64,000 nt of DNA from a virus: positions 18,985 through 82,984 of the IMG/VR virus record IMGVR_UViG_3300015199_000002; one strand, 5' to 3'. Below, in pieces: positions 17,367-57,903 of this stretch; the first letter of the stretch is position 1; each line of letters opens with the position of its first letter. Under the pieces are notes generated by a model. That model did no database searches. It saw only the letters and a list, made by a program, of their open reading frames with translations, and was not told the origin of the DNA. A program made the position numbers and the translations under genes.

Positions 17367-19181
17367 TTAATACTCATATCCGCTAATTGATACTTTACCG
17401 TAACCAACGGCTGCTGCTGTTCCGGTAGCCCCGATGCCTTGGATAGTAATCCCTATTCCGGTTCCGCCGGCGAACTCTAGTCCATCCGGTATCTCTATTA
17501 CCATTGCTTGAGATATGCCTGCTGTAGCTGAAGCTGCTCCTATAGACCAAGAATCAACCAATGGAGAACCGAGAGCTACGACGCCGGATAAGTTTGCTCT
17601 CATATTTACCTGAATGGTTCCTGCTGTAGTTATCGCTACATATGTTATTGTAATTTTCTGGATACGATAAGTTTTTCCTGTAGTAACAACTGCGGGGGTA
17701 GTGGTTGCTCCAACAGCAGCACCAGACTTATATCCAGTTAAAGATTGTAGTGTTTCTGTATTAGTAGAAACTACCTGAGCTGCCATGAAAAGATTAGAAA
17801 TATTTCTTCCTGTATCTTTTTGATCTTGTGTAGAAACTGCATACGTACTTTGAGTATTTTTAGCGTTAATTGGTAATTCTCTGACGTTGGTGCCGTCAGT
17901 TCCGCCTACTTGCACAGGGTTGCCGCTAATTGCCGACCCAGCTGCAGTTGTTCCCACAACCTGAGCATTTAGTGCAGATGCGGTAGCATTAAATACCTGT
18001 ACTGAGGAGACCCCGGCCCCGGCGTTCCAAGCAACAGTAGCTGTGCCTGATGTGTACGTACTGCACCTAAATCTAACCTGCTGAAATCCTCCACAAGGGA
18101 TCATAAAGAGACCGGGAGAATTTAGCGAAGGTAATATAATCGGGGAACTCTGTACCTGGATCGCCTCAATTGCAGTCCAGTTTGTACCGTCTGCGGTCGC
18201 TTCGGGACTTAAAACAAGAGTAAATGTTCCGGTAACTTGAAAGTTAATTGTTGAACATCCGTTTACCGTTGCGGTTACTGCTCCGTTCAGAGCATTTATT
18301 GTCCCGGAGCCACTCTTATCTAAAAAGGTGTTGATGCCGGTTTGGTCGGTAGGCAGAACTGCTCTAATAACCTGAGCAGATGTTGTTCCACTTCCAAATA
18401 GAGCAGCTCCGGTTGAGTTACCAATTTGCGCCGCAGTTCTTAGGGTTTGGCCCCCCACTGTGCCGAAATTGAAATCGGCGGCTCCTGTGGCGTTTCCTAT
18501 CTCAGCTGCAGTTCTAAGAGTTTGCGCTCCAACAGTTCCGAAGTTAAAATCAGCTGCACCTGTTGCGTTACCGATTTGGGCAGCGGATCTTAGAGTATTT
18601 GCTCCAACCGCACCATAGTTTTCATCGTACGGGAAGGGTGCTGGAGGCTCTCCGGACCCCGCATTCCAGCTAACGGTGGCCGTTCCTGACGTGTATGAAG
18701 AACAGCGGAGTCTAACCTGTTGGAATCCTCCGCAATCAATCCGGAAGAGACCTGGAGAATTTAGCGAGGAGATTACGAAAGAGGCATACTGAACCTGTAC
18801 TATAGAAATCGCAGTCCAGTTTGTACCGTCAGCTGTTCCCTCCGGACTCAAAACAAGGCTAAATGTTCCGGTAACTTGAAAATATGTTGTGGAACAACCA
18901 TTGACTGTCTCAGTTATTGTTGCGTTTAATGCTGATATTGTTCCAGATCCAGATTTGTCTAGAAAAGTGTTAATTCCGGTTTGATTAGATGATAGAGTAA
19001 CTGGAAGAGAAGCTGCCATTAAACCTTGGCCTACGCTAATAGCGTTCCCCGATCCATCGTTTAAATTTGTTGGTACGTGGCCAGTTGAAGTTACTTCTAA
19101 CCAGTTATCTTCAACACCAGAAGAATTAGAGCCTACTATTTTAACGGATTGTGATGCTTGCGCCTCAGTAAGATCTGCCAT
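17367..19181 (-). CDS. Repeat-containing fibre-like structural protein
   Basis: 604 residues. It contains repeats of about 22 residues of the form GTVGAQTLRTAAQIGNATGA, shared with the gene upstream at 19243..20709. A larger duplicated module of roughly 90 residues is also present (LDKSGSGTISALNA, CSTTYFQVTGTFSLVLSPE and CSTINFQVTGTFTLVLSPE, GGFQQVRLRCSSYTSGTATV). The C-terminal domain (KTYRIQKITITYVAITTAGT) is beta-rich. Head fibre or tail fibre are both possible. Placement between scaffold and capsid genes slightly favours a head-associated role. Confidence 0.65.
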   Translation of the reverse strand: MADLTEAQASQSVKIVGSNSSGVEDNWLEVTSTGHVPTNLNDGSGNAISVGQGLMAASLPVTLSSNQTGINTFLDKSGSGTISALNATITETVNGCSTTYFQVTGTFSLVLSPEGTADGTNWTAISIVQVQYASFVISSLNSPGLFRIDCGGFQQVRLRCSSYTSGTATVSWNAGSGEPPAPFPYDENYGAVGANTLRSAAQIGNATGAADFNFGTVGAQTLRTAAEIGNATGAADFNFGTVGGQTLRTAAQIGNSTGAALFGSGTTSAQVIRAVLPTDQTGINTFLDKSGSGTINALNGAVTATVNGCSTINFQVTGTFTLVLSPEATADGTNWTAIEAIQVQSSPIILPSLNSPGLFMIPCGGFQQVRFRCSTYTSGTATVAWNAGAGVSSVQVFNATASALNAQVVGTTAAGSAISGNPVQVGGTDGTNVRELPINAKNTQSTYAVSTQDQKDTGRNISNLFMAAQVVSTNTETLQSLTGYKSGAAVGATTTPAVVTTGKTYRIQKITITYVAITTAGTIQVNMRANLSGVVALGSPLVDSWSIGAASATAGISQAMVIEIPDGLEFAGGTGIGITIQGIGATGTAAAVGYGKVSISGYEY

Positions 19182-49862: not shown

Positions 49863-50627
49863 TTAAAACTTCCCTTTTTTATCCAGCGTTATTAGACGGC
49901 CTTCGATCAGGCAAGTATTCTTGACAATGGGTACAGGAGTCACGTATACAACCCCAGATTTAGGCTCTAGGTAACCGATTCCGAACGCCAGAGACCAGTC
50001 CTTGATCGCCTTAACCCGATGCATATAGTCTACTTCGTTAACATCCCCCAGCCACCCAAGCATCGCGGTGACGTGGCGCTCGCCGTTGGCGTTCCCTTCA
50101 ACTGCGTACCCGAGACGGTGCGTATGGCCGATAACTACATTGTGCTGGAAGGCGTCGAGGGACTTGTAGTGGGCGTACCGGCCGGCGGTTCCGGTGTCGT
50201 GGGTGATGTGGAGCTTACCAATCTTATACGACTGCTTGTACGGCGTGTACGAGAATCCCTTAGACTTAAGCTCAAGGATGTGCGGGATTGAGATGTAGTT
50301 ATAGAGTTCTGGTGCTCTATCTCGAAGGTACCGCTCAAGGCGGTCCTCGTGGTTACCGGCTACGAATACATTATTCTTGGCGCCAAGTGCTTTCACCTGG
50401 TCTAGTGCCGCTTTCGTAGCCTCGACTTCTTCTTTTAGCTTTAGGGCACGATTAGGGTCTTTGGAGTGGGAGCTGACGCCGTAGAAGTCTGCGAAGTCGC
50501 CCAGGATGATTGCGTGGTCAGGCTTGAATTGCTTTCCGGCCTGTAGCATTAGGCTGAATGCGTCCTTGTCCTGGTAGGGCACGTGGCAGTCTGGGATGAA
50601 CAAGATCTTTTCTAGTTTATTTTTCAT
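49863..50627 (-). CDS. Metallophosphoesterase
   Basis: 254 residues from ATG at 50627, chosen by GGAG five bases upstream. FIPDCHVPYQDKD, IILGDFADFYG, AGNHEDRLER, THDTGT and IGHTHRLGY give a full calcineurin-like metal site. This subgroup is common in phages and may hydrolyse nucleotides or phosphodiesters; the substrate is unknown. The start overlaps the end of the upstream HNH-like gene by 11 bases. Confidence 0.8.
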   Translation of the reverse strand: MKNKLEKILFIPDCHVPYQDKDAFSLMLQAGKQFKPDHAIILGDFADFYGVSSHSKDPNRALKLKEEVEATKAALDQVKALGAKNNVFVAGNHEDRLERYLRDRAPELYNYISIPHILELKSKGFSYTPYKQSYKIGKLHITHDTGTAGRYAHYKSLDAFQHNVVIGHTHRLGYAVEGNANGERHVTAMLGWLGDVNEVDYMHRVKAIKDWSLAFGIGYLEPKSGVVYVTPVPIVKNTCLIEGRLITLDKKGKF

Positions 50628-51306
50628 TTTTACTCCGCACATCGACTAGGTTGTGTATTGCTTCTTTTTGTCCGGGACGGTGTTTTTTCGAGAGTTTATT
50701 TTTTCCCGGAACCTGCATTATCTTACCCACAAGTTGGTAAATCGCCTTCTTACTGTTAAGTTGTCTCTTTATATGTGCGAATTCTCTATTTTGTTTCCAA
50801 GTAACGAATTGTATGTTGTGTAGCTCATAGCCGCCGGTAAAGCCGGTTTTGGGGTTCGGTTCTGTGATCATACGATCGGGAGAAGGTTTCAGATCTTTTT
50901 CGTATCCGGAAAGCATCCATGTCTTCCATAAACAGTAGATGTTGGAGTCAGACAAAGCTTTTTCCATAAAATCTTTCTTTTTAGGGCAAAATCTTCCTAG
51001 GTATAATTTCTTGGTTGATTCGCTTTGTTGTTTATTGCTAGTTCGATAAAGCATTTTATGCCACATCTGACTTAGCATGCCTAAAAATGTATGTCTATGT
51101 CTAGTGCTTATTTCCCGCATGAGTTTTTTATTCTTTTCTCGGAATTCCGGATCCTTCATGCGAGTGTAATGAGCGCGAAGGAACATCTTATTTATTCGAT
51201 TCCTTATTTTCGGGTTTTTATTATGCTCCTCCCTGTAATGAAGCTGACAAAATCCCTTAGCGTGATATTTTCTTAGGCATTTATTACGTGTACAGGATTT
51301 ATTCAT
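50617..51306 (-). CDS. HNH-like endonuclease, diverged
   Basis: 229 residues from ATG at 51306, which overlaps the upstream stop (ATGA). A Cys/His-rich N-terminus (CTRNKCLRKYHAKGFCQLH) is followed by a very basic helical middle. The later part (KPSPDRMITEPNPKTGFTGG, then YELHNIQFVTWKQNREFAH) corresponds to the DRI...GY...NIQWVT-type HNH variant found in phages. Zinc-binding Cys pairs in the core are absent, so activity is unsure. It is probably a homing-type insertion. Confidence 0.6.
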   Translation of the reverse strand: MNKSCTRNKCLRKYHAKGFCQLHYREEHNKNPKIRNRINKMFLRAHYTRMKDPEFREKNKKLMREISTRHRHTFLGMLSQMWHKMLYRTSNKQQSESTKKLYLGRFCPKKKDFMEKALSDSNIYCLWKTWMLSGYEKDLKPSPDRMITEPNPKTGFTGGYELHNIQFVTWKQNREFAHIKRQLNSKKAIYQLVGKIMQVPGKNKLSKKHRPGQKEAIHNLVDVRSKNEK

Positions 51307-51449
51307 ATGTTCCATAGTAGCACCTGTAGTATAAAAGACAAGATTAAAATCAAAGACCCGAAAATAAAATACCGGGGTTCGCCGACTTTGTAATAGGCTG
51401 CGAAGTTAGTCGCAGAAACTACTATTCCAAAAATAACATGTGGTGACAT
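51303..51449 (-). CDS. Small two-pass membrane protein
   Basis: 48 residues. ATG at 51449 directly follows the TAA of the 69-aa gene, and its own stop overlaps the next ATG. Two hydrophobic stretches (VIFGIVVSATNFAAYY and FIFGSLILILSFILQVLL) flank a short charged turn (KVGEPR). Size and topology resemble small phage holin or membrane proteins. Confidence 0.6.
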   Translation of the reverse strand: MSPHVIFGIVVSATNFAAYYKVGEPRYFIFGSLILILSFILQVLLWNI

Positions 51450-51659
51450 TTATCTAACTTTCTTAGGTTTAGGAGAAACTCGCTCCACGTGAATGGGGCA
51501 TGCCGCGAGATCTTGTTCGTCCTGGGGAATTCGACATTGATTGATTGGGCCTTGCCACAAATACCCGCTACGAAGTAATACCGTAACAGACTCCCCGGAT
51601 CTAGCTACGAGGGTCCCAGCCTGTCCACTTGAGACGATAACAACGCTACCTTCAACCAT
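51450..51659 (-). CDS. Hypothetical small beta protein
   Basis: 69 residues with an SH3-like beta pattern (VVIVSSGQAGTLVARSGESV, TVLLRSGYLWQGP) and a basic end (PKPKKVR). It follows the membrane gene at 51661..52062 by one base and abuts the 48-aa membrane gene. A nucleic-acid-binding or regulatory role is possible. Confidence 0.55.
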   Translation of the reverse strand: MVEGSVVIVSSGQAGTLVARSGESVTVLLRSGYLWQGPINQCRIPQDEQDLAACPIHVERVSPKPKKVR

Positions 51660-51660
51660 A

Positions 51661-52062
51661 TCAGAACCTCAGTATTATGAAAGTTACCCCGCCTATAGCC
51701 GCTCCCGCTCCCCACGTCTTAATGTCAGTCTTTGAGGTGTAGGAGTCTATCAGTGATTCTTTCAGGGCGCCTATTAGGGCTAACGTCATTGCAGAATAGA
51801 TGGCCGCTGCGGTCCTGCTGACCCCTAGGTCGTGTTCTAGTATACCGGATAGCAGCAGAGTTCCTCCGAAGGCGACTAGTAGGTGTACCTCTGAGTCGCT
51901 GTCCGTCCACTGGAATCTATCAGCTTGTCGGTATGACCACAGCTGGTCGGCGTTAGTTATGTTGTCGCCGCCGAACTGGAAATTGGTGCTGGGGAGAGTC
52001 GGGGCTGACCATAACAGGGATAGTGCGGTGGCGGCGATGATGATTTTCCTAAAGAGTTCCGT
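51661..52062 (-). CDS. Membrane protein with non-standard ACG start
   Basis: 133 codons, open from just after the methyltransferase stop to TGA at 51661, but with no ATG, GTG or TTG near its beginning. ACG at 52062 stands six bases after a TAGGAG site and gives a proper signal/membrane start (ELFRKIIIAATALSLLWSAP). Later segments are VHLLVAFGGTLLLSGI, MTLALIGALKESLID and WGAGAAIGGVTFIIL. The A..GALKE..DS and GAGAAIGG pattern resembles small periplasmic or membrane phage proteins. Either ACG is the start or an upstream ATG has mutated. Confidence 0.6.
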   Translation of the reverse strand, partial: TELFRKIIIAATALSLLWSAPTLPSTNFQFGGDNITNADQLWSYRQADRFQWTDSDSEVHLLVAFGGTLLLSGILEHDLGVSRTAAAIYSAMTLALIGALKESLIDSYTSKTDIKTWGAGAAIGGVTFIILRF

Positions 52063-52071
52063 ACTATTCTC

Positions 52072-53049
52072 CTACAATCCCATTAGCCTTTTGAAGGCTT
52101 CTTTGGCTTGATTTGGAACCACTGCGTTCCCACAGCATTTAATTCGGTGTGCCCTATTGGAAAACCCATCATCGCCTCTACGAATCGTGGGGAGAGGTAG
52201 CCAGGATGGCCACGGCTGCTGACCTGCAAATCCAAGCTCGGCGAGTGTTTTCCATGCGGCTTCGGGGTATCCTGTCCCTTCCAATCTCTCGCTGTTGGTG
52301 TCGGCCAAGCCGACACTGGGTACCGCGGGTGGTTTCCCGATACTGCGTCGTTCAGATTCGCCATCCCGTGACCTTGATTTATCTTCTGTTGAATGTATTC
52401 TTTTGAGTGTGGGGGAAAGTAATCCCGTGCCGTAGGTGTTGGCCACAAGTTCTGTCTCGCCATTGTTTCCAAGGAAGGGCACGCCCTTCCCTTTCGTCCC
52501 GCTGCTCCGCCCTTGTTCGTTCCGTACGTTGACGCTGTCGGCGTGGGCAGCAAGGAGGAACCATCGATTTCTTTTGTGGGGGGCACCAACTTCGCTAGCG
52601 GATACAGTATCCCATCTACAGTCATACCCGCGGCTGGCCAGTTCTTTGACCACTCGTTCTCCTCCGCGGGTCCTAATGGCCGGGACATTTTCCAGGAAGA
52701 CGAACTTCGGGCCGGTTTCGTCGATGAGCCGGAATATCTCGAATACCAAGCCGCTTCGCTCTCCTTCCAAGCCTTTGCCATTGCCGGCAACGCTGATGTC
52801 TTGGCAGGGGAAGCCTCCGGAAATAATTTCAATCCTTGGGAGCATCCCTCCTTTGAGAGTCCGCACGTCATCCCATATTGGTCGAGCGGGAATCCTGCCG
52901 ATTGACATGTTTGACAAAAGTACAGCTTGAGCGAATCGGTCGTTTTCGCAGTATGCGACGGTGTTGACCCATTCGCTGAGCGCGATACTGTTTCCTCCGA
53001 TTCCGGAGAAGAGATCGAGGGAGTTAAGTCTTTCTTTAGGTAAATCCAC
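52072..53049 (-). CDS. C5-cytosine DNA methyltransferase
   Basis: 325 residues starting with GTG at 53049, with AGGAG eight bases before it. Motifs in order: LDLFSGIGG (motif I), GGFPCQDIS with catalytic Cys82 (motif IV), FLENV (VI), PHKRNRWFLLA (VIII) and CCGNAVVP (X, residues 307-312). The target-recognition region between VIII and X holds repeated (A/L)ADT/ANT elements. It methylates cytosine to avoid host restriction or mark phage DNA; the target is unknown. Almost the whole gene is overlapped by another same-strand frame. Confidence 0.92.
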   Translation of the reverse strand: MDLPKERLNSLDLFSGIGGNSIALSEWVNTVAYCENDRFAQAVLLSNMSIGRIPARPIWDDVRTLKGGMLPRIEIISGGFPCQDISVAGNGKGLEGERSGLVFEIFRLIDETGPKFVFLENVPAIRTRGGERVVKELASRGYDCRWDTVSASEVGAPHKRNRWFLLAAHADSVNVRNEQGRSSGTKGKGVPFLGNNGETELVANTYGTGLLSPTLKRIHSTEDKSRSRDGESERRSIGKPPAVPSVGLADTNSERLEGTGYPEAAWKTLAELGFAGQQPWPSWLPLPTIRRGDDGFSNRAHRIKCCGNAVVPNQAKEAFKRLMGL

Positions 53050-53051
53050 AC
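52083..53051 (-). CDS. Overlapping long reading frame with PTPTA motifs
   Basis: A 322-codon frame lies inside the methyltransferase gene, same strand, shifted by one base. Its likely start GTG at 53051 overlaps the methyltransferase GTG (GTGTG), so one ribosome site could serve both. Its translation is not random: SSSSWKMSRPLGP, AAGMTVDGILYPLAKLVPPT, three PTPTA motifs (LLPTPTAS, LWPTPTARD, AWPTPTARDWKG) and LSPRFVEAMMGFPIGHTEL. I recall this LPTPTA...MGFP.G.T pattern in phage proteins near methyltransferases. Expression is unproven; a recurring by-product frame is the alternative. Confidence 0.5.
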   Translation of the reverse strand: MWIYLKKDLTPSISSPESEETVSRSANGSTPSHTAKTTDSLKLYFCQTCQSAGFPLDQYGMTCGLSKEGCSQGLKLFPEASPAKTSALPAMAKAWKESEAAWYSRYSGSSTKPARSSSSWKMSRPLGPAEENEWSKNWPAAGMTVDGILYPLAKLVPPTKEIDGSSLLPTPTASTYGTNKGGAAGRKGRACPSLETMARQNLWPTPTARDYFPPHSKEYIQQKINQGHGMANLNDAVSGNHPRYPVSAWPTPTARDWKGQDTPKPHGKHSPSLDLQVSSRGHPGYLSPRFVEAMMGFPIGHTELNAVGTQWFQIKPKKPSKG

Positions 53052-53052
53052 T

Positions 53053-53268
53053 TTATTCTCCTGCAAGAAGCTCTATAAAATACTTATTAGCTTCGCAGTC
53101 TGGAGAGTGCACGATTTTCTCCTCGTCATGATCTCCTAGTTCGGAGTGCGTAGTAACCACCTCCGTTTTATTGCACGTGCACAGCAGCCCTCTCCGAATT
53201 AGCTTCTCCAGCATTTGCATCTTTGCTGCGGCGGACATGGGAGGCTTTTCGTTGTATGGAGGTTTCAC
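53053..53268 (-). CDS. Hypothetical protein
   Basis: 71 residues if started at the GTG at 53268, which overlaps the upstream stop (GTGA). It contains a helix (AAAKMQMLEKLIRRG) and CTC plus a later Cys (HSPDCEANKYFIE), possibly a zinc site. Function is unknown. Confidence 0.5.
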   Translation of the reverse strand: MKPPYNEKPPMSAAAKMQMLEKLIRRGLLCTCNKTEVVTTHSELGDHDEEKIVHSPDCEANKYFIELLAGE

Positions 53269-53489
53269 GCGTACCACTTTCTTAGTAAAGCGAACTCTTC
53301 GCCTATTTGAGGATCACCAATGAATTCTAACAAAGCCTGGTCGGCCATAACGTGAGTGACTTCAGTGTCGCCGGTCTCGTTCTGTTCGCAGTGTCTTAAG
53401 GCCCGAAGCTTAGCTATGAGCTCATCTTTGGTGCCTGTGGGCATGTCTCTTAGTTTCTTATTGTGCGCCTGCTCTTCTTCGTATGTCAT
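53265..53489 (-). CDS. Hypothetical helical protein
   Basis: 74 residues, mostly helical (TYEEEQAHNKKLRDMPTGTK, DELIAKLRALRHCE, GEEFALLRKWYA). No family is recognised. It is coupled to the gene downstream by GTGA. Confidence 0.5.
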   Translation of the reverse strand: MTYEEEQAHNKKLRDMPTGTKDELIAKLRALRHCEQNETGDTEVTHVMADQALLEFIGDPQIGEEFALLRKWYA

Positions 53490-53548
53490 GCCGACCTCAG
53501 TTGCCGCTCCACAGCAGCGCAGAAATGAATAGGCCTAAGTAGAAGCTC

Positions 53549-54103
53549 TTATCCAAGAGCGGGGCCCGCAGTAGGTACAGGGGTCACTGTGGGCGCCTGG
53601 GCCTCTGCTGCCGCCGCGAAGATAGTATTCTCGGGATTAGCGATAGCATGTGCCTTAGCTGCAGCGGCCTGCTCAGCTTCTTCCTTTGCCTGTTTGTCTG
53701 CGGCTTCTTGGGCGGCTTTGGCTTCTGCTTCAAGCTTAGCGGTAATGACTGCTTTCTCGGCTGCGATGTCGTTCTCAAGGCCGGTCATGTCGGTGATGCC
53801 GAGTCGCTTTGCGAGGACTGTCTGCCATGCCAAGAGGGTTGTGTTCGTGTTAAAAAGTTCTTTGCTAATCTGAAAGGAGACGTCTCGCATCAACATTGAC
53901 CGGAAGGTCTGAGTTTGGCCGTCAATCTTCTTGAGTTCGGCGTCCACGTTTTTGGATACTTCGTCTAATCTGCCAGCGGCAAACTGCATGAGATCTTTTG
54001 CCATCGCCGACACAGCTTCCGCTTGTAGAGCGGACCCGTATTCCTGTCTGGCAATATTAACTATCTGCTTGCGGGCCAATTTCAAATTCGCCTGATGTCC
54101 CAT
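53549..54103 (-). CDS. Conserved phage coiled-coil protein
   Basis: 184 residues from ATG at 54103, with AAAGGAG eight bases upstream. The N-terminal half (LARKQIVNIARQEYGSALQA, AAGRLDEVSKNVDAELKKID, MLMRDVSFQISKELF) is like a helical protein found in podovirus replication regions. An Ala/Glu-rich coiled coil and a Pro/Thr-rich tail (APTVTPVPTAGPA) follow. A hairpin (GCTCTT/AAGAGC) overlaps the stop. Function is not established. Confidence 0.55.
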   Translation of the reverse strand: MGHQANLKLARKQIVNIARQEYGSALQAEAVSAMAKDLMQFAAGRLDEVSKNVDAELKKIDGQTQTFRSMLMRDVSFQISKELFNTNTTLLAWQTVLAKRLGITDMTGLENDIAAEKAVITAKLEAEAKAAQEAADKQAKEEAEQAAAAKAHAIANPENTIFAAAAEAQAPTVTPVPTAGPALG

Positions 54104-54182: not shown

Positions 54183-54584
54183 CTATTTTTTAGCCTTCTT
54201 CTTATATTCGCGGCGGAGTTTGTTCTCCCCTTTAGTCTTTTCAGAGTGACAGAAATCATCAAGTCCCTGAAGACCCTCGCGTTCGCACCAGAGGCGATCG
54301 ACAGCTTCGTCTAGGCTCATGTCTGCGAAAGTCTCTTCTATTTTCACGATTGGTAGAATATGGTCTACACTCATCAGGTACCGTGGGGAGACGACCCCAC
54401 AGAGGGCGCAATAGCACCATCGTTTAACCCTGGGTCTGTTCGGATCTACGTGTTCGACTTCTTGGGAGTCTAGTACGGATCTCCTAAGCTCGGACCTGGA
54501 GAAAACTCGTCGTAGGGCTCCCTTCAAAAGGCCCTTCTCTTTTGGTGTAAGTCTTGGATTAGGAGGTCTCTGATCGTTCGCCAC
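54183..54584 (-). CDS. HNH-type endonuclease of the recombination module
   Basis: 133 residues. A basic N-terminal part (KGLLKGALRRVFSRSELRRS) is followed by CYCALCGVVSP, MSVDHILPIV with the catalytic His, WCEREGLQGLDDFCHSEKTK and ENKLRREYKKK, giving an HNH/His-Me finger core. The family resembles small phage endonucleases that lie beside sbcC-type genes, so a structural role in recombination or packaging is more likely than homing. It overlaps the sbcC-like gene by 26 bases. Confidence 0.7.
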   Translation of the reverse strand: MANDQRPPNPRLTPKEKGLLKGALRRVFSRSELRRSVLDSQEVEHVDPNRPRVKRWCYCALCGVVSPRYLMSVDHILPIVKIEETFADMSLDEAVDRLWCEREGLQGLDDFCHSEKTKGENKLRREYKKKAKK

Positions 54585-56415
54585 TTTCCACAGTACTTCT
54601 GCCCTCTGTGTCTATAGATACATTATAAATTGAATTAAAGCAACTTTTTAAATTATCGTCGTGTTCGATGAAAATGATTGATTCAGTGCTTGTCGATAGT
54701 TCTTCAAATAGGCTAAACGCCTTTACCTTGAGTTCGGCATCGAGCCCTGCTAACACTTCGTCAAAAATCATCAGATTGAAGTCAACACCAGCAACTTCTG
54801 CTGCGAGCTTCATAAGAGCGGTTGAGAAGGATATAACCAGTAATTTACGCTGGCCCCCGCTAAGTGCCTTAAAATTCGTTGAATACTGATCCTTAAAAAT
54901 CTCCACTTCTAGCTTATCGCTATCCTGTAAAGAGAACTTCACTCGAAAGGCCGAGTCAAAATACTTCTCTAGCCGCGCATTGGTCTCCTGTTGGAGGCGG
55001 GCTACCGAGTTCATGAGAAGTTCTCCCCTCAAAACGAAACTCAAATCATAAACACTTGTTAAGCTGGCTACCCGGTGGGTTTTGTTTTCAATGTTCTCAA
55101 TAATTTTGTCCTGCGCTCTGTCAACACGCTGTATTTCTCCAATTGTTTCCGAAATTTGATGGATATATGGGTTCTTGGCGTCCTTGAGCTCCTGTATGCG
55201 CTCTGGATATGCGTTTACCTGGGCTTCTTCGGCTGCAATAGCTGCTTGGGCGTTTTCTAGCTGGTCAAGTAGCCGCTCATTGTTGTTCCTATCAGATTGA
55301 ACCTGGGCCAGATCGGCCAGGAGAGGGCGTTCTGCTTTCAACTCTGCCTCTACCTCGGATAGAGTCGCTTGTGCCATCTTCAGCAGCTTCTTAGTGGCCT
55401 CTAGCTCTCTTGAGCAAGTTTCCAGGTGCTCTTTTCTGTTTGGATTAGCCCCCGGCCTCTTACATTCAGGGCAGGTGTCTGGCAACCGCTCTTGTCTGGC
55501 CCTGTCTTTCTCGGCAGAGGCTACTTGACTCTTATAGTCGGCCACGATAGAGACGAGCTTCGCGTAGTTGGATTTGACCGACTCGAGCTTGTTCAGCTTT
55601 TCTTTGATCTTGTCTATTTGGAGGGTAAAGGCCTCGTCGTCTTTGATGCTAGTGACTAGCATATTTGACTTAGCCACTAGGGTAGAGATTTTGCTGGCTT
55701 TTACCGCTTCAAATTCCGCGGACTTAGCCTCAGCGTCTACTATGGTCTTCTTTTGCTGTATAGCCCACAGTTCGTACGCACGCTCTGAGGACTGTCTCTG
55801 GCTCACCAGTTGGTCGTACCGGCCCTGGTTCTTGGCCTTTTCGAGTTCTAGTGCCTCTAGCTCCTTCTTGGCTGCCTTTCGGGCCTCTGATGCCTTCTCG
55901 GCCAGCTTTACTGGCATTGAGAGATCTGATATGCGTTCCAAGGTGACACGGCGGTCTTTTGCTTTGGCGATGAAGAACTCTCCGGCCTCACTGAATTGTC
56001 CAAAGAAAGCGCCGATGTTGTAGAGCTCGGCATCGCACCCTATCCGCTCGTCAATCAGCTTCTGAGTCTCGGTCATGTCCTTACCACGCTTCTTGGTGTC
56101 TGGGTCCGAAGCTTCCGTGTAGTATAGGTCGTTCTGGGTTGCCTTACCGCGTACTCGGTGAATAGTGATTTCACCTGTTGGTGTTTCTACGTCGATGTCG
56201 CCCGAAGTCTCGCTTTCGGCTCCCCATGACCTGACGTCTTCAACGGATCCGCCTTTGCTAGTTTGACCCCACACGACCCAATTAGGAATTTCTGCGATTG
56301 TTGATTTTCCAGAGCCGGTGACCCCGGACAACAGTGCGAGTCCTAGATTTGAATAGTCAAAATCTAAAGATTCGAATGAACCGAAGTTGGTGACGGAGGC
56401 GCGCTTAAATCTCAT
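54559..56415 (-). CDS. sbcC: SbcC/Rad50-like ATPase
   Basis: 618 residues. Walker A GVTGSGKST (31-39) opens the ATPase head. Two long coiled coils flank a zinc hook CPEC (315-318). The signature LSGGQRKLLVIS and Walker B NLMIFDEVLAGLDAE close the head. It pairs with the SbcD/Mre11-like nuclease (56839..57903), as T4 gp46/47, to process DNA ends and start recombination-dependent replication. Two small genes lie between the two subunits. Confidence 0.92.
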   Translation of the reverse strand: MRFKRASVTNFGSFESLDFDYSNLGLALLSGVTGSGKSTIAEIPNWVVWGQTSKGGSVEDVRSWGAESETSGDIDVETPTGEITIHRVRGKATQNDLYYTEASDPDTKKRGKDMTETQKLIDERIGCDAELYNIGAFFGQFSEAGEFFIAKAKDRRVTLERISDLSMPVKLAEKASEARKAAKKELEALELEKAKNQGRYDQLVSQRQSSERAYELWAIQQKKTIVDAEAKSAEFEAVKASKISTLVAKSNMLVTSIKDDEAFTLQIDKIKEKLNKLESVKSNYAKLVSIVADYKSQVASAEKDRARQERLPDTCPECKRPGANPNRKEHLETCSRELEATKKLLKMAQATLSEVEAELKAERPLLADLAQVQSDRNNNERLLDQLENAQAAIAAEEAQVNAYPERIQELKDAKNPYIHQISETIGEIQRVDRAQDKIIENIENKTHRVASLTSVYDLSFVLRGELLMNSVARLQQETNARLEKYFDSAFRVKFSLQDSDKLEVEIFKDQYSTNFKALSGGQRKLLVISFSTALMKLAAEVAGVDFNLMIFDEVLAGLDAELKVKAFSLFEELSTSTESIIFIEHDDNLKSCFNSIYNVSIDTEGRSTVESGERSETS

Positions 56416-56627: not shown

Positions 56628-56842
56628 TTATAGACCTTTAACTTTGGGTCACTGGAGAGTGTGTGTGCGACTCTTTCCACAGTGCAATATAAACAGTAAC
56701 ACCCTTCCTTCGGGGTGTCGTGCGGATTTAATACCATCTGTTCTGCGTGTGCCTGCCGCCAGTAACTACTCAACGTGTTTAGTTTCTTGCACTCGGAGAT
56801 CAGTTTCCTCGCCTGGGCTATGTTGGCTTCCTTTGAAGTCAT
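56624..56842 (-). CDS. Small Cys-containing protein
   Basis: 72 residues. ATG at 56842 overlaps the SbcD stop (ATGA), which decides the start. It is helical, with HDTPKEGCYCLYCTVERVAH providing a three-Cys/His cluster that may bind zinc. Function is unknown. Confidence 0.5.
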   Translation of the reverse strand: MTSKEANIAQARKLISECKKLNTLSSYWRQAHAEQMVLNPHDTPKEGCYCLYCTVERVAHTLSSDPKLKVYK

Positions 56843-57903
56843 GCCAGGGTCTCTCTCCACAGACCTTTGAGGTTCTTCTTCTCCTCAAGACTCTCTTCAG
56901 TCTGATCTATGAGTCTATCCATGATCTCCGCCTCAGTCAAGCGCTCCTTTGTCTCTTCCATCCTGGTGACTTCTGTGGGGATTTTGTCTAGCTTGAATTG
57001 GTTTACCTGCAGGTAGTGGCCCAATTCTGCCTTAAATACTCTTGCTAACTCGCTCTCTGGACCGGTCAGTTTAACCCAAAGCAGATCATACTGACCAATG
57101 TTTGATTCGGGAACCGACTCGCTATACCGGTTGCGGTCTTGCTTACTAAGCCAGTCCGTAGTGAGTTCAAGTTTCACGTGCTTGCGGAGGTTTGTGGGTA
57201 CCAGTTCTAGTGTACCGTCGTCGTATAAGATGTTGAACCCTTTGGGGCCGTCGTTGGCTTCAGAATATGTGATGGAATAAGGAGAACCTAGGTATGAGAA
57301 CAGGCCTACTGCGCCTTTCCTTGGAGGACCGCACTTTATGTCCTGCCGTTTATGGTAATGGCTCGCGATAACTCGGAAGTCAGAAAACGAGTCAGTTGGA
57401 AGTGATGTGGAATCTTTTACATAATGACCTAAATCCGCGCCCATTACTCCTTGATGAATTATCAAGCGGGTCCCAATATCCACTGTGTGTAGGAACTCTT
57501 TTAGCTTATTTGTGTCATTGAAGTATGGAACAATATAGGATTTGAATCGCTCAATGTAGACCGGCGACGATACTACCTGCGCGTACGGGCGTAAAAAGTT
57601 GAGAGCGCTATTATCCCCCTTCTCTGAAAGCATGTCGTGATTGCCAGTATTGATATAAACTTGTTCTGACTCAATTTCCCCTAGTATTTCAATAAGTCGG
57701 TTTGCGATTTCACCGCGTATAATAGCTTTGGCGTCAAGGGTATCGCCGTTCAGGATAATAGGAACGTGCAGTTCCTTAGCTTTTAAGATCATCTGCCTAA
57801 GCGCTGAACTCGCCAGCTCCAAGGTGCCGAGAGTAAAATGAGAGTCGCCTGTGGCTACTGCAATTGGGCTACGCAATTCGGTCACGCTTCCTAGAATTTT
57901 CAA
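56839..57903 (-). CDS. sbcD: SbcD/Mre11-like nuclease
   Basis: 354 residues. Metal-site motifs are AVATGDSHF, ILNGDTLDAK, NTGNHDMLSEKGD, IHQGVMG and ASHYHKRQD in Mre11 order. The C-terminal region (TEVTRMEETKERLTEAEIMD) is helical and probably binds the SbcC coiled-coil base. It acts as exo/endonuclease with the SbcC subunit at DNA ends. The HNH gene overlaps its start by 35 bases. Confidence 0.88.
   Translation of the reverse strand: MKILGSVTELRSPIAVATGDSHFTLGTLELASSALRQMILKAKELHVPIILNGDTLDAKAIIRGEIANRLIEILGEIESEQVYINTGNHDMLSEKGDNSALNFLRPYAQVVSSPVYIERFKSYIVPYFNDTNKLKEFLHTVDIGTRLIIHQGVMGADLGHYVKDSTSLPTDSFSDFRVIASHYHKRQDIKCGPPRKGAVGLFSYLGSPYSITYSEANDGPKGFNILYDDGTLELVPTNLRKHVKLELTTDWLSKQDRNRYSESVPESNIGQYDLLWVKLTGPESELARVFKAELGHYLQVNQFKLDKIPTEVTRMEETKERLTEAEIMDRLIDQTEESLEEKKNLKGLWRETLA

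Follow-up and report, generated by a model that had tools for sequence, protein, structure and literature searches.

A phage C5-cytosine DNA methyltransferase probably encoded as two chains in overlapping frames of one gene

Two reading frames at the methyltransferase locus

The window analyzed here is a stretch of 64,000 nucleotides from an 83 kb virus record (IMGVR_UViG_3300015199_000002, positions 18,985 to 82,984), in which a methyltransferase (MTase) region adjoins SbcC/SbcD-like, HNH, and metallophosphoesterase genes. Two open frames share this region on the same strand (Table 1): a C5-MTase frame, termed alpha, and a +1-shifted frame, termed beta. PF00145 aligned to alpha over residues 9–178 (E-value 1.2e-40), and this one chain holds motifs I, IV (PCQ), VI (ENV), and VIII in order, all of them invariant in alignment A2. 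The match of M.HhaI to the alpha profile covers motifs I–VIII only, and the usual C5-MTase layout (PF00145), in which motif IX precedes motif X in the same chain, is not that of alpha. Neither the window nor its 80 viral relatives show the motif-IX pattern in the alpha frame; it was found in the +1 frame instead.

Table 1. Positions of the two frames and their motifs in the window
Feature	Position	Strand	Remarks
Alpha, C5-MTase catalytic subunit (putative)	52072..53049	-	GTG start; 325 aa; motifs I–VIII and X, without motif IX
Beta, second subunit (putative), +1 frame	52083..53051	-	GTG 2 nt before that of alpha; 322 codons and stop
Shared start region GCAGGAGAATAAAGTGTG	53047..53064	-	AGGAG; beta GTG 53051–53049; alpha GTG 53049–53047; one-base overlap
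Alpha motif I FSGIGG	52993..53010	-	
Alpha motif IV GGFPCQ	52801..52818	-	catalytic Cys; invariant in A2; beta reading EASPAKTS
Alpha motif VI ENV	52684..52692	-	surrounding beta reading SSSWKMS
Alpha motif VIII GAPHKRNRW	52561..52587	-	
Alpha motif X GNAVVP	52114..52131	-	overlapped by C-terminal tail of beta
Beta core (SSSSWKMSRPLG .. WPAAGMTVDGILYPL .. LLPTPTAS)	52509..52844	-	overlaps alpha motifs IV–VIII
Beta PTPTA motif 1	52533..52547	-	alpha reading HADS
Beta PTPTA motif 2	52428..52442	-	alpha reading ANT; matches fused MTases
Beta PTPTA motif 3	52290..52304	-	alpha reading ADT; matches fused MTases
Beta motif IX LSPRFVEAMMGFP	52158..52196	-	homologous to IX segment of single-chain MTases

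An earlier note, made from the letters of the window, had reported a +1 frame of about 320 stop-free codons within the MTase gene, with three PTPTA motifs and an LSPRFVEAMMGFP ending, and all of these were located in beta. The frame is open from a TTG at 53066 and runs to the stop at 52083; with the GTG at 53051 as its start, the lengths of beta and alpha are nearly equal. The claim that each PTPTA motif is the other reading of an ADT/ANT-type element held for the second (ANT) and third (ADT) motifs and failed for the first, where alpha reads ADS. The note missed the identity of the ending as motif IX and of the pair as one split enzyme. LSPRFVEAMMGFP is the motif IX that alpha lacks. By position it corresponds to KLHPRECARVMGYP of M.HhaI, to which the IX segment matches weakly by direct sequence comparison. 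Across the nested betas there are 0–5 PTPTA repeats per protein, with a median spacing of 33 aa. A comparison with PHROGs placed beta in phrog_1008, annotated 'DNA methyltransferase' (E-value 3e-28); searches of Pfam and NCBIfam returned no family for beta, and a sequence search of the PDB nothing up to an E-value of 10. The AlphaFold2 model of beta alone was poor (pLDDT 58) and had no structural match in the PDB, though a poor result is quite possible for any subunit modeled without its partner.

The start codons overlap as GTGTGG, the two GTGs lying 6 and 8 nt past a single AGGAG, in agreement with the arrangement first described for this locus. The AGGAG ribosome-binding site sits within the end of an upstream gene (53053–53277, minus strand), the TAA of which ends 1 nt ahead of the beta GTG, between AGGAG and the starts, suggesting coupled translation. 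Relatives typically have an RTGAATG double start, from which the two-GTG pattern of the window departs, and in 76 loci the beta ATG occurs exactly 4 nt past the alpha start (RTGAATG or TTGAATG). In a second group of loci the beta start is internal, mostly 10–40 codons ahead of motif IV and often with a stretch resembling a ribosome-binding site; the beta of the window may likewise have an internal start.

Conservation of the two frames

The openness of each frame was evaluated against the protein encoded by the other. In the forward test, alpha codons from motif IV to X were shuffled among synonymous positions, which retains both the protein and the codon usage of alpha, in 87 loci with MTases mostly 33–69% identical to that of the window. 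The +1 frame of these loci contained 17 stops compared to 394.5 expected, while the +2 frame contained 976 compared to 958.5 expected; in the reverse test, in which the synonymous codons of beta between motifs VIII and IX were shuffled in 226 loci, the expectation was 753.5 stops for the alpha frame and 1408.7 for the third frame, and the observed numbers were 28 and 1530, respectively, with the loci in both tests being related, such that their stops are not independent events. For the window alone, motifs IV–X contained zero +1 stops against a mean of 6.2 expected, zero being reached in 0 of 1000 shuffles, and 10 stops in the +2 frame against 11 expected. The two frames are mutually conserved, and the scarcity of stops in both directions indicates that selection keeps both open. 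Alpha and beta appear to be a dual-coding pair, each frame maintained given the protein of the other.

The beta of the window scored 284.7 bits against a leave-one-out beta profile, compared to a mean of 120.7 and a maximum of 148.1 bits for shuffled alpha genes and −1.1 bits for the +2 frame. About 120 bits of the beta pattern are forced by alpha, and the large excess above this value is not. For the beta core of the window, the corresponding profile (bcore) gave 124 bits compared to 86 bits for synonymous shuffles (z = 5.2).

The beta start is also conserved in relatives. Among nested loci where the N-terminus of alpha reads N-[E/G/V], the choice of AAT for asparagine creates the beta ATG. 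The ratio of AAT to AAC at this codon was 95:2 where beta is open from that ATG (97 loci) and 4:7 where beta is closed (11 loci), as compared to 284:507 at other asparagine codons of the catalytic domain (n = 791). The ATG of beta in these relatives is thus preserved by synonymous choice in alpha.

Divergence at individual codon positions points to a change in the leading frame along the gene. For 24 disjoint pairs of close relatives, the number of differences per codon at positions 1/2/3 of alpha was 0.155/0.096/0.349 before motif IV, 0.133/0.073/0.280 over motifs IV–VIII, and 0.406/0.269/0.310 between motifs VIII and X, where the fastest-changing site is alpha position 1, equivalent to beta position 3. 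The dN/dS of alpha is about 0.2 and rises to 0.79 between VIII and X. Because change in this segment peaks at beta position 3 and the dN/dS of alpha increases, beta is taken as the primary code there, while alpha leads in the catalytic region. Between VIII and X, alpha is almost unconstrained, remaining open to reach motif X, and its ADT/ANT elements are a by-product of the PTPTA repeats. The earlier note had considered that the second pattern could be a shadow of repeated MTase elements; the comparison refutes this and reverses the direction between VIII and X, where the alpha elements shadow beta. The same note had listed frequent +1 stops in relatives, or variation that is synonymous only in the MTase frame, as evidence against beta; +1 stops were rare in relatives and the variation does not follow that pattern, and its proposal that both frames may be translated has gained strong comparative support from the stops, profile scores, start codon, and natural control described below. 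It should be noted that overlap-aware dN/dS was rejected as proof of beta in the catalytic region. The value for beta (0.60 [0.55–0.66]) does not differ from that of the split control, which lacks the overlap (0.66 [0.50–0.87]), and the stop counts and profile scores were therefore used for this region.

Nested, split, and fused relatives

With beta alone as the query, searches of viral contigs and bacterial genomes matched nested pairs almost exclusively. Of 177 viral and phage loci, some of which were found through alpha, 169 combine a +1 beta with a motif X read in the frame of alpha. The same nested layout holds for 75 of 80 bacterial genome loci, which were recovered with a profile from a tighter set (A3) than the full beta alignment (A1). 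The nested genome loci span Proteobacteria, Actinomycetota, Bacillota, Verrucomicrobia, Gemmatimonadota, and others. The earlier note had proposed a search for phages carrying the second frame without an intact MTase, but no standalone, non-overlapping beta of the window type was found in these searches; the sole apparent case (L170) is cut by the end of its contig. A DNA-level search of phage records returned no match, and the nearest relatives were therefore found through protein only. The Klebsiella version is nearly absent at the DNA level from complete E. coli genomes. In three nested loci (L049, L119, and L216) alpha has a stop between motifs VIII and X, yet motif X occurs in frame downstream, and an actinobacterial contig (L220:3724-5788) carries a full nested pair followed by a second beta core with motifs IX and X and without a catalytic half.

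Actinophages have two further states, in both of which the beta segment does not overlap the catalytic part. In the split state, alpha ends before motif IX and beta holds IX and X, while in the fused state all parts belong to one chain. Over motifs IV–VIII, nested loci contained 0 stops in the +1 frame compared to 60.9 expected, whereas split loci contained 60 compared to 52.1 expected, and the median profile z-scores for the same segment were 4.5–5.7 for nested and 2.0 for split loci. The constraint thus disappears with the overlap, and the split loci act as a natural control. For the fused loci (L257–L275, L288, and L301), the +1 frame over IV–VIII contained 6 stops compared to 18 expected, though the overlap is seemingly unneeded.

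The fused state is represented by ShiLan gp70 and 20 relatives, in which a single frame encodes the catalytic domain, motif IX (PAFSEWMMGWP), and motif X, and LLPTPxA repeats almost always separate VIII from IX. One fused MTase (L301:2486-3427) has zero PTPTA repeats from VIII to IX. A profile comparison of beta and the fused-MTase segment (hhalign) gave a probability of 98.6% and an E-value of 8e-16. Homology between the C-terminal segment of beta and the VIII–IX segment of single-chain MTases is clear from this comparison. For the fused protein L260, the PF00145 match spans motifs IX and X, to profile position 313 of 324, and its predicted structure has a fold match to M.HhaI in which IX–X is modeled confidently and the PTPTA repeats with low confidence.

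A putative two-chain enzyme and its alternatives

The locus very probably specifies a single C5-cytosine DNA methyltransferase of the M.EcoHK31I kind, composed of two polypeptides encoded by the same DNA. Alpha (frame 0) would supply the AdoMet-binding and catalytic domain with motifs I–VIII and a C-terminal motif X, and beta (+1) the small-domain part, with the PTPTA-repeat target-recognition region and motif IX, preceded by a segment that overlaps alpha motifs IV–VIII. Both chains would initiate at overlapping codons behind a single ribosome-binding site, an arrangement by which they would be produced together. Beta is thus likely translated in this phage and, by analogy with M.EcoHK31I, where motif IX resides on a separate smaller polypeptide, would assemble with alpha into the active enzyme. 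The PTPTA repeats presumably act in DNA recognition, and the biological role of the enzyme may be to protect phage DNA. A broader proposal, to which we give only limited credence, is that a large family of phage and bacterial C5-MTases is obligately dual-coded, with an entire recognition subunit encoded in +1 relative to the catalytic gene, and that the PTPTA units (~33 aa apart, 0–5 per protein) are exchangeable recognition modules allowing several sequences to be methylated per enzyme. Should this be the case, the gain or loss of a unit would alter alpha and beta simultaneously.

Three alternatives can be weighed against the two-chain enzyme. An untranslated shadow, in which the MTase motifs and codon usage happen to keep a repetitive +1 frame open, would be compatible with the roughly 120 bits that synonymous shuffles still reach on the beta profile and with a catalytic-region dN/dS equal to that of the control, but such a shadow would not account for 17 stops where 394 are expected, for a window score of 285 bits when shuffled genes reach at most 148, or for the retention of the beta ATG (AAT 95:2). 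Additionally, the constraint is lost in loci without an overlapping beta, and the same segment is real protein sequence in the fused MTases. Based on the stop counts in both directions, the profile scores, and the start-codon conservation, this explanation was rejected and is considered extremely improbable. It is equally improbable that beta acts on its own in some other process, for example as an inhibitor or regulator, and has nothing in common with the MTase beyond the overlap of their genes. While searches of the PDB and Pfam with beta alone gave no match and no function is assigned to its N-terminal half, the C-terminal half shares homology with the VIII–IX segment of MTases, the alpha frame of the window and of 80 viral relatives lacks the motif-IX pattern, and beta is essentially never seen without alpha.

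A programmed +1 frameshift that joins alpha motifs I–VIII to the PTPTA–IX part of beta, yielding one polypeptide and no separate beta chain, is improbable to a lesser degree, though still very unlikely. The fused single-chain forms of actinophages demonstrate that a joined product can be an enzyme. In window-type loci, however, motif X is back in the alpha frame and would be lost after a single shift, and a frameshift needs neither a beta that is open and conserved upstream over IV–VIII nor a beta ATG at the alpha start. No slippery site was noticed.

The two-chain enzyme has a precedent in M.EcoHK31I, the small chain of which is read from an alternative frame within the large-chain gene. As summarized in PMC3404938, the larger chain of M.EcoHK31I contains motifs I–VIII, X, and the predicted target-recognition domain (TRD), and the smaller chain contains motif IX (Lee, Kam and Shaw 1995). 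Compared by this description, the window has the same division of motifs, with I–VIII and X on the large chain and IX on the second, but differs in the location of the recognition-type repeats, which are on beta, in the extent of the overlap, which takes in nearly all of the gene, and in the beta start, which adjoins that of alpha. M.AquI is likewise a C5-MTase split into two subunits, but is described in the same source as having IX and X together on the small chain, unlike the window and resembling the actinophage split form. The single-chain MTases of the ShiLan gp70 type (phrog_363/phrog_116) share with the window a catalytic domain, PTPTA repeats, and a motif IX homologous to beta, and differ in having everything, including motif X, in one frame. 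The overlap reported in the ShiLan paper (PMC11855218) is an out-of-frame HNH insertion in a phage methylase, and was rejected as a description of the nested MTase as it is a different overlap.

Some annotators have already noticed the nested gene. The family phrog_1008 is the same beta family and includes gp56 of Paenibacillus phage Shelly ('g55 internal gene'), located inside an MTase gene. No description of phrog_1008 as a motif-IX subunit was found in the papers retrieved, and among open-licence papers none addressed the nested family, with M.EcoHK31I the only precedent found. Many database records annotate just one of the two frames, and half of the enzyme is therefore missing from many records; an annotated MTase expressed alone would be expected to be inactive. 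To our knowledge, bacteria and phages seldom have same-strand overlaps as long as about 320 codons, and comparative proof is lacking for most of those proposed. Here, independent tests agree over >200 loci, with the fused and split relatives as natural controls, and since one and the same enzyme exists in nested, split, and fused form, the origin of overlapping genes becomes directly testable.

The surroundings of the locus were also considered. No restriction gene was recognized among the scanned neighbors and no RNA families were detected in 51500–53600. The metallophosphoesterase gene and the MTase region flank a 232 aa open reading frame without a PHROG match (50617–51315, minus strand), and genes for SbcC-like and SbcD-like nuclease subunits are present at 54559–56415 and 56839–57903 of the window, both on the minus strand.
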